NCBI GenBank assembly: GCA_903900335.1
Contig: CAIUMP010000056.1
Location: 62,001 to 126,000 of the forward strand
From: an uncultured Ignavibacteriota bacterium
GTDB lineage: Bacteria > Bacteroidota > Ignavibacteria > Palsa-1295
Direction: 5' to 3'
Length of the DNA: 64,000 nt
Part shown: piece after piece, positions 1,327 to 6,647 of the stretch
How positions within the stretch are numbered: position 1 is the first letter of the stretch
Layout: each line of letters opens with the position of its first letter
Made by a program: the position numbers and the translations under genes
The notes under the pieces: generated by a model
The model's database searches: none
Seen by the model: the letters and a program-made list of their open reading frames with translations, nothing else
Told to the model about the DNA's origin: nothing

Positions 1327-1740
1327 ATGACCGAAAGCCTAGACCCTCGCATCCAACGCGCGCACATCGAAGGCGCGCCAGCCTCAGCCGGGCTCGAACC
1401 GAACGAGCACTGGGAGACCTTCGCGATCTTCCATCAGGATAAGCGCGGCGCCGCGCACGAGTTCGTCGGTATCGTCCACGCGCCCGACCCTGAGCTTGCG
1501 CTCGTCTTCGCGAAGGAGCAATTCGGACGCCGCAAGAAGACCGTGAATATCTGGGCCGTCCGCTCGACCGACATCTTCACCTTCCAGCACGAGGACGAGG
1601 ACATGTTCTCCACCGTGCCGGACAAAAACTATCGCGAGGCCTCCGGCTATCCGGTGCGCAAGCGTATCAACAAATATCTTTTCGATACCAAGGAAGAGCA
1701 GAAGGAAATGGAACGAATGGACGCGGAGGCGAAAGCATGA
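1327..1740 (+). CDS. paaB: Phenylacetyl-CoA epoxidase subunit PaaB
   Basis: PaaB is the small bridging subunit of the multicomponent oxygenase that turns phenylacetyl-CoA into its ring-1,2-epoxide in aerobic phenylacetate breakdown. The core starts near residue 28 (EHWETFAIFHQDKRG, then HEFVGIVHAPDPELAL) and contains the FGRR and NIWAV segments typical of the family. The protein is 137 residues from ATG 1327, longer than the usual 95 or so because of N- and C-terminal extensions. An in-frame ATG at 1279 lies inside the previous gene and is less likely. No clear ribosome binding site precedes 1327. The stop overlaps the paaC start (ATGA), so translation is probably coupled. The catalytic partner paaA, normally just upstream, is absent; the DUF3883 gene ends 22 bases before this start. 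Confidence 0.88.
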   Translation: MTESLDPRIQRAHIEGAPASAGLEPNEHWETFAIFHQDKRGAAHEFVGIVHAPDPELALVFAKEQFGRRKKTVNIWAVRSTDIFTFQHEDEDMFSTVPDKNYREASGYPVRKRINKYLFDTKEEQKEMERMDAEAKA

Positions 1741-2492
1741 ACGACGCAATCAAAGACTTACTCTATCGCATGGCCGACGATGAACTCATCATCGGTCACC
1801 GCAACAGCGAGTGGACGGGCCTCGGGCCGATCCTCGAAGAAGACATCGCGTTCTCCTCCATCGCGCAGGATCAGATCGGTCATGCGCTGGCGATCTACAC
1901 GCTGCTTCAGCAACACTTCGAAGCAGGCACACCAGACGCCATCGCGTTCGGTCGCGACGAGAAGGATTTTCACTCGTCACACTTTGTCGAGCTTCCTATC
2001 GGCGATTATGCATTCAGCCTGATGCGTCACTTCCTCTTCGATCACGCGGAGTCTTTGCGCTACGAGATGCTCACACAATCTTCTTTCGCGCCGCTTGCCG
2101 CACTTGCGAAGAAGATCAAGGGTGAATTGAAGTATCACGTCCTTCATGCTGATCTCTGGGTAACGAAGCTCGGCAAAGGGACGGAGGAGAGTCATGCGCG
2201 AATGCAAACGGCGCTCAACGAAGCATTCCCGTATGCGCTCGGGATGTTCGAGCCATCGAAGTTTGAAGACGAATTGCAGACGAACAATATCTTCGAAGGC
2301 GAAGCGGCTCTGCAAGCGAAGTGGCTTGACGCAATCGCACCGATCATCGACAAGGCAGGTCTTGTCCTGCCTGATGTTGCCCCTTCGTCCATCATCTTCG
2401 GCGGACGCAACGGCTATCACAGTGTGTATCTTCAACCGATGGTCGAGGAGATGTCGGAAGTGTATCGACTCGATCCTGCAGCGACATGGTAG
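1737..2492 (+). CDS. paaC: Phenylacetyl-CoA epoxidase subunit PaaC
   Basis: PaaC is the ferritin-like structural subunit that pairs with PaaA in the epoxidase complex; it has the di-iron fold but is not the catalytic subunit. The 251-residue length is normal. Family hallmarks are the N-terminal LLYRMADDELIIGHRNSEW, then GPILEEDIAFSSIAQDQIGH, and a later FLFDHAESLRYE helix. The start codon overlaps the paaB stop by four bases. The stop (TAG at 2490-2492) overlaps the first codons of the long paaD reading frame. Everything seen agrees with an intact protein. Confidence 0.93.
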   Translation: MNDAIKDLLYRMADDELIIGHRNSEWTGLGPILEEDIAFSSIAQDQIGHALAIYTLLQQHFEAGTPDAIAFGRDEKDFHSSHFVELPIGDYAFSLMRHFLFDHAESLRYEMLTQSSFAPLAALAKKIKGELKYHVLHADLWVTKLGKGTEESHARMQTALNEAFPYALGMFEPSKFEDELQTNNIFEGEAALQAKWLDAIAPIIDKAGLVLPDVAPSSIIFGGRNGYHSVYLQPMVEEMSEVYRLDPAATW

Positions 2493-3040
2493 TTACGCAT
2501 AACCGCGTGGAGCGTGCCGACCCCGGCACGCTCTTAAACCAACAGAGAGGAAGTGCCGAGGGCGGCACTTCCCACGCGGTTATGGAGGTACTCGCCACCG
2601 TCATGGACCCCGAAATCCCCACCCTCAGCGTCATAGATCTCGGCATGATAACCGGGGTTACGATGAGCGATGATGGCATCCACGTTCGCCTACTCCCAAC
2701 ATTCGTGGCATGTCCCGCGACGAGTTACATTCGCAATAGCATCACCGACACGCTCGCGAACGCAGGCTTCCATAATGTGACGGTTGATATGGAAGACGAA
2801 CTCTCCTGGTCCAGCGACCGCGTGACTGAGCGAGGCCGGAAGCTGCTGGAAGAATTCGGTTTGGGCGCGCCGATACAGATTGATGGCGTCCTCAATCTCG
2901 AAACCATCGAGCATGTCAATTGTCCGCATTGCGGCAGCGCGAACACCACACTCCGCTCGATGTTCGGTAGCACGCTCTGCCGCTCGATCCATTACTGCGA
3001 GGATTGCCGGCAGGGGTTTGAGAGGTTTAAGCCGGTCTGA
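2486..3040 (+). CDS. paaD: PaaD (PaaJ)-like MIP18-family protein, N-terminus disrupted by a hairpin element
   Basis: PaaD-type proteins carry a MIP18/DUF59 domain and are thought to help iron-sulfur maturation of the PaaABCE oxygenase. The domain starts at MEVLATVMDPEIPTLSVIDL (ATG 2582). The C-terminal zinc-ribbon-like part has CPHCGS, a single Cys in STLC, then CEDC, and ends in FERFKPV, as in the family. The open frame also reaches back to ATG 2486, which overlaps paaC by seven bases. The extra 32 residues are encoded entirely by a double-hairpin element (2498-2584) and resemble no PaaD sequence I know. Either ATG 2582 is the true start, with the element forming the leader, or the element has been added to the protein in frame. 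No paaE or other paa gene follows. Confidence 0.9.
   Translation: MVVTHNRVERADPGTLLNQQRGSAEGGTSHAVMEVLATVMDPEIPTLSVIDLGMITGVTMSDDGIHVRLLPTFVACPATSYIRNSITDTLANAGFHNVTVDMEDELSWSSDRVTERGRKLLEEFGLGAPIQIDGVLNLETIEHVNCPHCGSANTTLRSMFGSTLCRSIHYCEDCRQGFERFKPV
2498..2584. repeat. BIME-like pair of inverted REP hairpins at the paaC/paaD junction
   Basis: An outer 13-base inverted repeat (CATAACCGCGTGG at 2498-2510, CCACGCGGTTATG at 2572-2584) encloses two perfect hairpins. Hairpin 1 is GAGCGTGCCG-ACCC-CGGCACGCTC (2510-2533). Hairpin 2 is GGAAGTGCCG-AGGG-CGGCACTTCC (2549-2572). A 15-base linker separates them. Each palindrome has a GTGG head on its outer side (GTGG at 2507-2510, CCAC at 2572-2575), the layout of two REP elements in inverted orientation. 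As RNA it would fold as a three-way junction that places ATG 2582 in the closing stem. The structure is read directly; the REP/BIME assignment is inference from the head-plus-palindrome pattern. Confidence 0.85.
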
Positions 3041-4172: not shown

Positions 4173-4329
4173 AAACGTGCTTACGGCCCGAGCGTCTCCA
4201 CGTTGCTCCAAATTAATCTCTGTAGCTTGTTTCAATTCTCTGACACTCCGGTTGACATGATATGAGAGGATTAGAACTGTCGAGATTTTCCTATGGTGCG
4301 CTGTTTTTTCGTATATTGTGTTCAGGATA

Positions 4330-5910
4330 ATGGGCACCTCAGACTTGCAAGCAGTGACAACAGAACTACTTAGGGAAACTCGCGGGAGTGTATATACGAA
4401 AGAGTGGGTCGTCCGGCTCATTCTGGATCTCTGTGCCTACACTTCCGATTTTGATCTTGCCTGCTCCTCTGCGCTTGAACCAGCCGCCGGAGAGGGTGCT
4501 TTTGCCCTGGAGATGGTGAAGCGATTGATGGAATCCTCGCGGAAGTTCTCGCGAGACCCGCAAGAGCTGGGTTCAGCATTAATCCTGTTTGAGATTGATC
4601 CAGTCGCCGCGGAACGGCTACGATACAGCATTGTATCTCTCCTTCAGGACGAGGGCGTATCATCAAAAGTAGCGGAAGATTTATGTGATTCGTGGATTCG
4701 CGTCGGTGACTATCTTCTCTCGACAAACAAAATACCCAAGGTTGATTTTGTGCTCGGCAATCCTCCGTACATTCGACTTGAGAACCTCGATGAGAGGTTC
4801 GCTGCGATGTACCGGCGATTGTTCCCCACAATGAGAGGTAGAGCTGATATCTACGTTGGGTTCTTCGAGGCGGGTCTGCGTCAACTGAAAGAAGGTGGTG
4901 TTTGCGGATTCATTTGCGCTGATAGATGGATGCGCAATAGTTATGGTTCTCACCTTCGTGCTCTGATACACCGGTTGTTTTCAGTTGACTGGATTATTGA
5001 ACTTCACGAAGCTGACGCATTCGAGGACGAGGTGGATGCCTATCCAGCAGTCACGGTTATCAGGCGCCGTTCGCAGGAACTCGTGAATATCGCTGAGGTC
5101 GTTGCGCAAACAACTCTTGAGGGGCTTCGCTTTCGAAGTATTGAGCCGTGGCTCAACGATGACGAACCATGGCCAAACGGAGATCCGGAGTCAATGGCTA
5201 AACTGGTTGCATGGAATAAACTACTCTCCACGCTTGAAGAAGAAGCAACTGGTACTTTCGTAGGAATCGGCGTCGCCAGCGGAGCAGACAAGATTTATGT
5301 CACGCGTGACGAGGAGCTTGTCGAGAAGAATCGCCTTCTTCCTTTAGCCTTAGGGAGTGACGTCTCAGAGTCAGGCTTCACCTGGTCACGACATTTTCTT
5401 GTTAACCCATGGAATGAAAAGGGTCTTGTTGATCTCAAACTCTTCCCCAAGCTCCAACAGTATTTTGAGAGTCATTCCAAGTCTTTGAAAGCAAGACATG
5501 TAGGCAAGAAATCCGAGGAGAAGTTCTATCGGACGATTGATAGGGTTGATTATGACTTGCTCACAGCCGAAAAACTGTATATCCCAGACATCCGATCTCG
5601 TTTGGTGCCGGTCCTCGATTCGGGATGGACATATCCGCATCATAACCTCTACTTTATCATCTCGCGAGATTGGGATCTCGAGGTCTTGGGCGGAATTCTA
5701 CTTTCGGAGCAAGCTCAACTCTTCATTTCTGCTTATGCCATGAAGATGAGAGGGGGATTCTACAGATATCAAGCTCAGTACTTGCGTAGAATTCGGGTTC
5801 CAAGGCTTCAAAATATTTCCGAAGACGACGCGCAAGAATTTCGCGATGCCTTTAGAGATAGAGATTCGGCTCGAAGCACACTCCGAGCGAACAAGTTCTA
5901 CCCAGCCTGA
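4330..5910 (+). CDS. N6-adenine DNA methyltransferase of a PaeR7I/XhoI-type R-M system
   Basis: This enzyme transfers a methyl group from SAM to adenine in DNA. Motif I is LEPAAGEGAFALEM (near residues 50-65) and motif IV is VLGNPPYIRL, the NPPY signature of gamma-class/Eco57I-like N6-adenine methyltransferases. The C-terminal half, from GIGVASGADKIYVTRDEE on, looks like a TaqI-type target recognition domain (GFYRYQAQYLRRIRVPRL near the end). From ATG 4330 it has 526 residues, close to M.PaeR7I as I recall it (about 530). A GTG at 4318 is an alternative start. It lies five bases before the endonuclease gene. The gene contains one CTCGAG site (5677-5682). Base use is more AT-rich than in sucC, which suggests transfer. 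Confidence 0.92.
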   Translation: MGTSDLQAVTTELLRETRGSVYTKEWVVRLILDLCAYTSDFDLACSSALEPAAGEGAFALEMVKRLMESSRKFSRDPQELGSALILFEIDPVAAERLRYSIVSLLQDEGVSSKVAEDLCDSWIRVGDYLLSTNKIPKVDFVLGNPPYIRLENLDERFAAMYRRLFPTMRGRADIYVGFFEAGLRQLKEGGVCGFICADRWMRNSYGSHLRALIHRLFSVDWIIELHEADAFEDEVDAYPAVTVIRRRSQELVNIAEVVAQTTLEGLRFRSIEPWLNDDEPWPNGDPESMAKLVAWNKLLSTLEEEATGTFVGIGVASGADKIYVTRDEELVEKNRLLPLALGSDVSESGFTWSRHFLVNPWNEKGLVDLKLFPKLQQYFESHSKSLKARHVGKKSEEKFYRTIDRVDYDLLTAEKLYIPDIRSRLVPVLDSGWTYPHHNLYFIISRDWDLEVLGGILLSEQAQLFISAYAMKMRGGFYRYQAQYLRRIRVPRLQNISEDDAQEFRDAFRDRDSARSTLRANKFYPA

Positions 5911-5915
5911 TCACT

Positions 5916-6647
5916 ATGAAGAAATCGCTAATCGATGCACGCTTTCAGGAAGCTGTTCAACACTTCTGGAATTCTCGTGTCAGCGCGCTTGCGGATCAAA
6001 AAGCTCGTGGCGTTACTGACGCTGGCGGTCGCGGTTCTGTGACGGCAAATGTCCAAATGAGATTACTCGAGAAGCTGGTCGCCGATACATTGTCCGATCT
6101 CGGCTTGGATGCGACATGCATCAAAACGAAGAGTTCTATCGAACTACCTGGATATTATCGGCCCGAAAAACAATGGGATCTGTTGGTGGTTGCAGATGGG
6201 AAATTGCTTTGTGCTCTTGAGTTCAAGTCGCAAGTCGGACCATCATTTGGCAACAATTTCAACAATCGTGTTGAAGAAGCAATCGGTAGTGCTTCGGATG
6301 TTTGGATCGCCTACAGGGAAGGACGATTCGGTAAAACACATCGTCCATTCCTGGGTTATTTCTTCCTGCTGGAAGATTGTCCCAAAGTCCACAATCCGGT
6401 TCGGGTAGCTCAATCGCATTTTCCAGTCGATCCCATATTTGAAGGGAGTAGTTATGCAAAGAGGTATCAGATACTGTGCGAACGCCTCCTCCTTGAGCGG
6501 TTGTATGACACTGCTTGCTTTACAATTGCGACGAACTCCGACCCCACCTTAATCAAGCATCCGTCAAAGGAGTTGTCTTTCAACAAGTTCATTAGTCAAC
6601 TTCGCGGGTCAGTTACTTCGTTTCTCGAAGGCGAGTTATTCGGTTGA
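5916..6647 (+). CDS. Type II restriction endonuclease, PaeR7I/XhoI family (expected C^TCGAG)
   Basis: This 243-residue protein carries the string ALEFKSQVGPSFGNNFNNR, which I recall as nearly identical in R.PaeR7I, followed by EEAIGSASDVWIAYREG, also very close to that enzyme. Earlier, LPGYYRPEKQWDLLVV supplies the acidic residue of a PD-(D/E)xK site, and EFK supplies Glu and Lys. XhoI and PaeR7I recognise CTCGAG, so the same specificity is predicted. The gene follows the methyltransferase with a five-base gap, a normal operon. The gene itself has a CTCGAG at 6066-6071. A hairpin follows the stop. No controller protein gene is seen. Family assignment is strong; specificity is inference from conservation. 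Confidence 0.93.
   Translation: MKKSLIDARFQEAVQHFWNSRVSALADQKARGVTDAGGRGSVTANVQMRLLEKLVADTLSDLGLDATCIKTKSSIELPGYYRPEKQWDLLVVADGKLLCALEFKSQVGPSFGNNFNNRVEEAIGSASDVWIAYREGRFGKTHRPFLGYFFLLEDCPKVHNPVRVAQSHFPVDPIFEGSSYAKRYQILCERLLLERLYDTACFTIATNSDPTLIKHPSKELSFNKFISQLRGSVTSFLEGELFG

Follow-up and report, generated by a model that had tools for sequence, protein, structure and literature searches.

Paired hairpins at the start of paaD as a probable in-frame dimer of a genus-specific, REP-like repeat in Kapabacteria

The paired hairpins at the paaC/paaD junction most probably represent a genus-specific REP-like repeat in the form of a head-to-head dimer, inserted into paaD in frame and close to its 5′ end, a reading to which we assign a probability of about 0.85. 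The junction lies within a 64,000-nucleotide stretch of DNA (the window), in which paaC (1737..2492, + strand; TIGR02158 over cut-off) is the upstream neighbor of paaD, encoding the phenylacetyl-CoA epoxidase subunit PaaD (2486..3040, + strand; TIGR02159 over cut-off), whose start ATG overlaps the paaC stop (ATGGTAG).

The paaD insertion

The double hairpin and the outer inverted repeat around it were found exactly where the original prediction had placed them, and the GTGG heads of both hairpins point outward, as it had claimed. The outer arms (2498-2510 and 2572-2584, 13 bases each) share their innermost pair with the hairpin feet, and the fold consists of a 12 bp closing stem and two hairpins, each with a perfect 10-bp stem and a 4-base loop, one at 2510-2533 (loop ACCC) and the other at 2549-2572 (loop AGGG). 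The folding energy of the junction had a z of −5.7 as RNA and of −9.0 as single-stranded DNA, with none of 200 shuffles as stable in either case.

The element itself consists of two inverted 30-bp units, arranged tail to tail with their heads outward, at 2504-2578. Unit 1 (2504..2533, + strand; covariance model 7.6e-8, and fold) is in sense orientation, with the head CGCGTGG, a stem at 2510-2519/2524-2533 and the loop ACCC at 2520-2523, while the inverted unit 2 (2549..2578, − strand; covariance model 2.4e-8, and fold) has a stem at 2549-2558/2563-2572, a loop at 2559-2562 and the head CCACGCG at 2572-2578; a 15-base spacer (2534..2548) separates the two tails. Of the 87-base unit originally proposed, only the 75 bp (25 codons) from 2504 to 2578, encoding RVERADPGTLLNQQRGSAEGGTSHA, proved to be the insert, whereas the flanks CATAAC (2498..2503) and GTTATG (2579..2584, containing ATG 2582) belong to the host. 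These flanks are the left and right halves of a palindrome that extends the closing stem, and other copies of the repeat lack the left half. Removal of the insert leaves the perfect palindrome CATAACGTTATG at the paaD site. Since other pairs lack the CATAAC/GTTATG match seen at paaD, a palindromic target was rejected as the general case, and the extension of the closing stem reflects either a palindrome of the target or coincidence.

Comparison of paaD within the genus bears on a further proposal, that the hairpin controls the paaD start. In all seven genus members paaD starts at an ATG-GTA that overlaps the stop of paaC. Relatives have Tyr, Phe, Leu or other codons in place of ATG 2582, which is thus unconserved, and on this comparison start-codon control at ATG 2582 was rejected. 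Because, in addition, excision of the 75 bp gives the length of paaD in the closest relative, the uninserted G003 (MVVTHN-VMEVLATVMD here versus MVTQQQ-IYDVLATVMD in G003), the feature is best read as a translated in-frame insertion rather than as a start-codon switch. Between ATG 2486 and ATG 2582, 32 codons can be read through without a stop, as had been noted, but comparison with related paaD genes indicated that not all 32 residues are extra, MVVTHN plus V being native. Since the TIGR02159 match begins at residue 39, the insert falls in the N-terminal tail of PaaD, and unrelated extensions at the same position in G004, G005 and G006 indicate that this tail tolerates inserts; most likely, the insert does nothing except lengthen it. 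At the N-terminus of the G006 paaD (locus L312, about 1330-1520), a different in-frame palindrome, CCCCTCCCGCTTGCGGGAGGGG, and a second related copy occupy the same place.

Elsewhere in the window, positions 4318-6647 contain an ORF with a NPPYIRLE-type adenine methyltransferase motif followed by a PaeR7I-type restriction endonuclease-like ORF, on a reading of the sequence likely a restriction-modification pair.

A dispersed repeat family within one genus

Use of the 106-bp junction as a query of the window's own genome revealed a second place, in ruvA, and pattern searches revealed more. Covariance models, the first built from eight copies and the second from 61 copies, run with an E limit of 0.3, gave 17 matches in this genome, 48 in G002, 20 in G006, 16 in G003 and 7, 4 and 3 in the remaining three genus members; the weaker of these matches are uncertain, and the best E-values of units extend down to 1e-8. 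The genomes with known titles are metagenome assemblies. The search for further copies in the genome and its relatives thus yielded a dispersed unit, found both singly and as inverted pairs, which supports the original BIME-like reading of the junction as two inverted REP-like units.

Beyond the genus, no unit was found in 393 other Bacteroidota genomes at E 0.001, and one weak match among 54 relatives of other genera (G060, same class) was judged to be chance. Exact-pattern searches gave 26 or so matches in other phyla, all but one without outer stem pairing, and the exception, a perfect palindrome in Glycomyces, was likewise judged to be chance. The outer stem, which was left free in the pattern, is present at nearly all Kapabacteria loci and so provides an independent control. 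On these matches, the repeat is confined to one Kapabacteria genus among the genomes sampled, and no paper on repeats of this sort in Kapabacteria came up in our literature search.

The 30-bp unit can be written as Y-CGCGTGG-stem-loop-stem with a weak DCC tail, the stem being 9-10 bp and the loop 4 bases. Over 61 copies, the CGCGTGG head is almost invariant (GTGG occurs in 60, and its last G is paired in 50), while the stem varies with its pairing kept: 95.4% of stem cells are paired compared to 74.6% in shuffles, and 120 stem cells are changed on both sides compared to 34 when shuffled, a number that none of 500 shuffles reached. Slid registers of the 61 copies lacked this covariation signal. 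Single units are commoner than pairs, which comprise six heads-out pairs of 60-89 bp (paaD, C62 and G002 contigs 203, 226, 113 and 106) and three heads-in pairs; the C62 dimer, at 89 bp, is not a multiple of three. Finally, 58 of the 61 units are stop-free in six frames, compared to about 40 for shuffles.

Insertion into genes and choice of codon phase

Assignment of sites by the codon-usage scores of both flanks, with the element itself excluded and the final split made by hand, placed about 65 of 74 independent sites (about 88%) inside genes and left nine intergenic or unclear. These copies, mostly in frame inside genes, support the suggestion that the junction element is a mobile palindrome that settled in frame. 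Both flanks were coding at 0.59 of random positions and at 48 of 77 sites; strict targeting of genes was dropped as an explanation, random positions being coding about as often, and the closeness of the two shares indicates that genes are not avoided, rather than targeted. Host genes identified by NCBIfam include ruvA, mfd, methylmalonyl-CoA mutase, queA, miaB and carA, as well as dnaG, mnmA, metG, pheS, nuoN and lpd.

Most of the insertions are missing from the orthologues of congeners, and their positions correspond to variable loops. In three well-aligned cases, the gain is exact (75 bp in paaD, 30 bp in mfd and 30 bp in a glycosyltransferase-like gene of G002), with no host codons lost and no target-site duplication visible; gains of exactly 30 or 75 bp leave no room for one. 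Several other orthologue comparisons showed a net gain of just 4-9 codons, reflecting either small host deletions at insertion or loops that differ for other reasons. In a methylmalonyl-CoA decarboxylase/carboxyltransferase-like gene on G002 contig 33 (locus L086, about 2000-2080), one unit has landed midway through an older one, of which congeners carry apparent decayed forms, pointing to vertical inheritance, decay and renewed insertion.

Other palindromes, CCCCCTCCTTTAGAAGGAGGGGG and CCCCCTCCTATTGGCATAGGAGGGGG, lie in frame in protein loops of G004 and G001 genes (loci L264 and L221). One of them is in queA, near the place where the CGCGTGG repeat is inserted in other species, and such tolerant loops may be shared by several repeat families.

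Of the 65 intragenic sites, 55 share codon phase 0 (P 2e-17), whichever way the unit points; this phase held 28 sense and 34 antisense units, and the two orientations encode different peptides. The favored phase gives a peptide of mainly A, G, V, R, T and H, the second commonest is rich in A, P, T and S, and the rare or absent phases are W/P-rich or about half basic, so that the ranking of phases tracks peptide mildness. This is the ranking that selection on the translated peptide would give, and it points to protein-level selection, although a mechanistic phase preference may be an alternative source of the bias. There are strong indications that the units are translated as extra stretches of 10 or 25 residues in variable loops and tails.

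Relation to known repeats and alternative explanations

Comparison with known systems suggested that the family is of a known kind, with the build of REPs and the habit of the Rickettsia elements, and that it is unusual in its tag and in its near-lack of gene avoidance. Di Nocera et al. (2013) described GTAG and CGTC REPs forming HH and TT dimers, with some REPs intragenic and most intergenic (PMC3733652). The Kapabacteria repeat resembles REPs in its 10-bp stem (REP range 6-13 bp) and in a tag at one end that is nearly invariant in 61 copies, but differs in its mostly intragenic copies and in the lack of a RAYT gene flanked by the repeat among 32 Y1 loci in seven genomes; the same two features separate it from GTAG REPs. 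Among these, the account of Opitutus terrae in that paper gives the closest parallel in GTAG-20, with a mostly GTGG tag beside a short stem-loop, tags-out dimers and compensatory stem variants, and names O. terrae as having the most intragenic GTAG REPs (PMC3733652); compared by description rather than by consensus, the Kapabacteria tag is longer (CGCGTGG) and its last G mostly pairs. Enterobacterial BIMEs and Pseudomonas REPINs share the layout of two inverted units with a short spacer and heads outward, but lie outside genes and are linked with a RAYT family, whereas the units described here lie in genes and singles are commoner.

Like the Rickettsia palindromic elements (RPE), for which a review summarizes in-frame copies (PMC10969869), the repeat lies in frame in many unrelated functional genes, both singly and grouped (PMC3733652, PMC10969869). 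RPE-4 and RPE-6 are identical to CGTC REPs (PMC3733652), and on a likeness drawn by description they differ from the Kapabacteria repeat in having CGTC rather than CGCGTGG as their tag; the first-reported RPEs are longer (about 150 bp) and come from a different phylum. Unlike a MITE, the repeat shows no room for target-site duplication in the three exact cases and has a flank consensus of no more than 1-3 bases, and unlike an intrinsic terminator or cis-regulatory RNA, the junction structure is absent from the six congeners compared and an Rfam search of the junction gave no family at its threshold.

Several of these results also bear on explanations other than an inserted repeat. That the junction is a chance palindrome, or a compositional artefact of GC-rich coding sequence, is negligibly probable: the core pattern is matched exactly, though singly, by chance in GC-rich genomes, but a dispersed consensus, presence and absence between congeners, E-values to 1e-8 and, decisively, compensatory stem changes over 61 copies refute it. 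A local RNA switch, in which ATG 2582 is masked or freed by the closing stem and paaD translation is thereby set, would fit the very stable RNA fold and the position of this ATG inside the closing stem; it is nevertheless very unlikely given that dozens of genes with no relation to one another carry the unit, mostly in the middle of the gene, that no congener keeps ATG 2582 or the structure while every one starts paaD at the ATG on the paaC stop, and that no Rfam family matches. We give similarly little credence to a functional peptide module, in which the RV..ADPG or G.GVGTHHA stretch is kept for its role in proteins, for the strong bias in codon phase that would favor it fits simple tolerability, the two orientations are about equally frequent despite their different peptides, the host proteins are unrelated and congeners manage without the insert.

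A weightier alternative, which we regard as possible but somewhat improbable, is that of a REP/BIME family of the classical type, mobilized by a RAYT of its own, its copies being intragenic merely because the genomes are gene-dense. The head and hairpin, the inverted heads-out dimers, the short loops and the weak tail consensus all agree with it, as does an intragenic share (about 88%) not above the gene-density expectation, and Y1 transposases with flanking palindromes of their own occur in the same genomes. However, described REPs are mostly intergenic (PMC3733652), and 50 of 61 copies have the final G of the head in a pair, in contrast to a free GTAG tag. The search for a RAYT also went against a dedicated enzyme: Y1 genes were present in all seven genomes, but at none of the 32 loci examined did the unit flank the gene as a cognate transposase would have it. 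Two Y1 proteins examined resemble REP-associated transposases, below NCBI's cut-off, and a RAYT encoded elsewhere could act on the unit in trans.

The Y1 genes at loci L018, L183, L013 and L016 are flanked by palindromes of their own, including CACCGGAGCTTTAGCTCCGGTG, GCCGGGAAGGAGGCCCTTCCCGGC, GCCCCCGGTGTCAACCGGGGGC and CCAGGGGTAGAGTCCGC, implying several other REP-like families in the genus.

For the REP-like repeat inserted in paaD, we propose that the unit would spread as a single-stranded hairpin, cut at its head by a Y1 transposase of the IS200/RAYT type acting in trans. Insertions would be tolerated because 30 bp preserves the frame and the units are almost stop-free in six frames, and purifying selection would afterwards favor the phase that codes for small residues. 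We raise, tentatively and with some doubt, the idea that this is gene-adapted mobile DNA, in which a ten-codon size, few stops and a mild peptide would render a substrate of a single-strand DNA enzyme harmless in essential genes and a recurrent source of new protein loops.

In-frame coding palindromes have been reported chiefly from Rickettsia, and a place outside genes is part of the very name of repetitive extragenic palindromes. The present lineage belongs to a different phylum and is known from soil metagenomes. Its genes, dnaG, metG, pheS, ruvA and mfd among them, hold dozens of copies, and its uninserted congeners allow tests of how the element moves, of how proteins tolerate it and of whether insertion or selection sets the codon phase.
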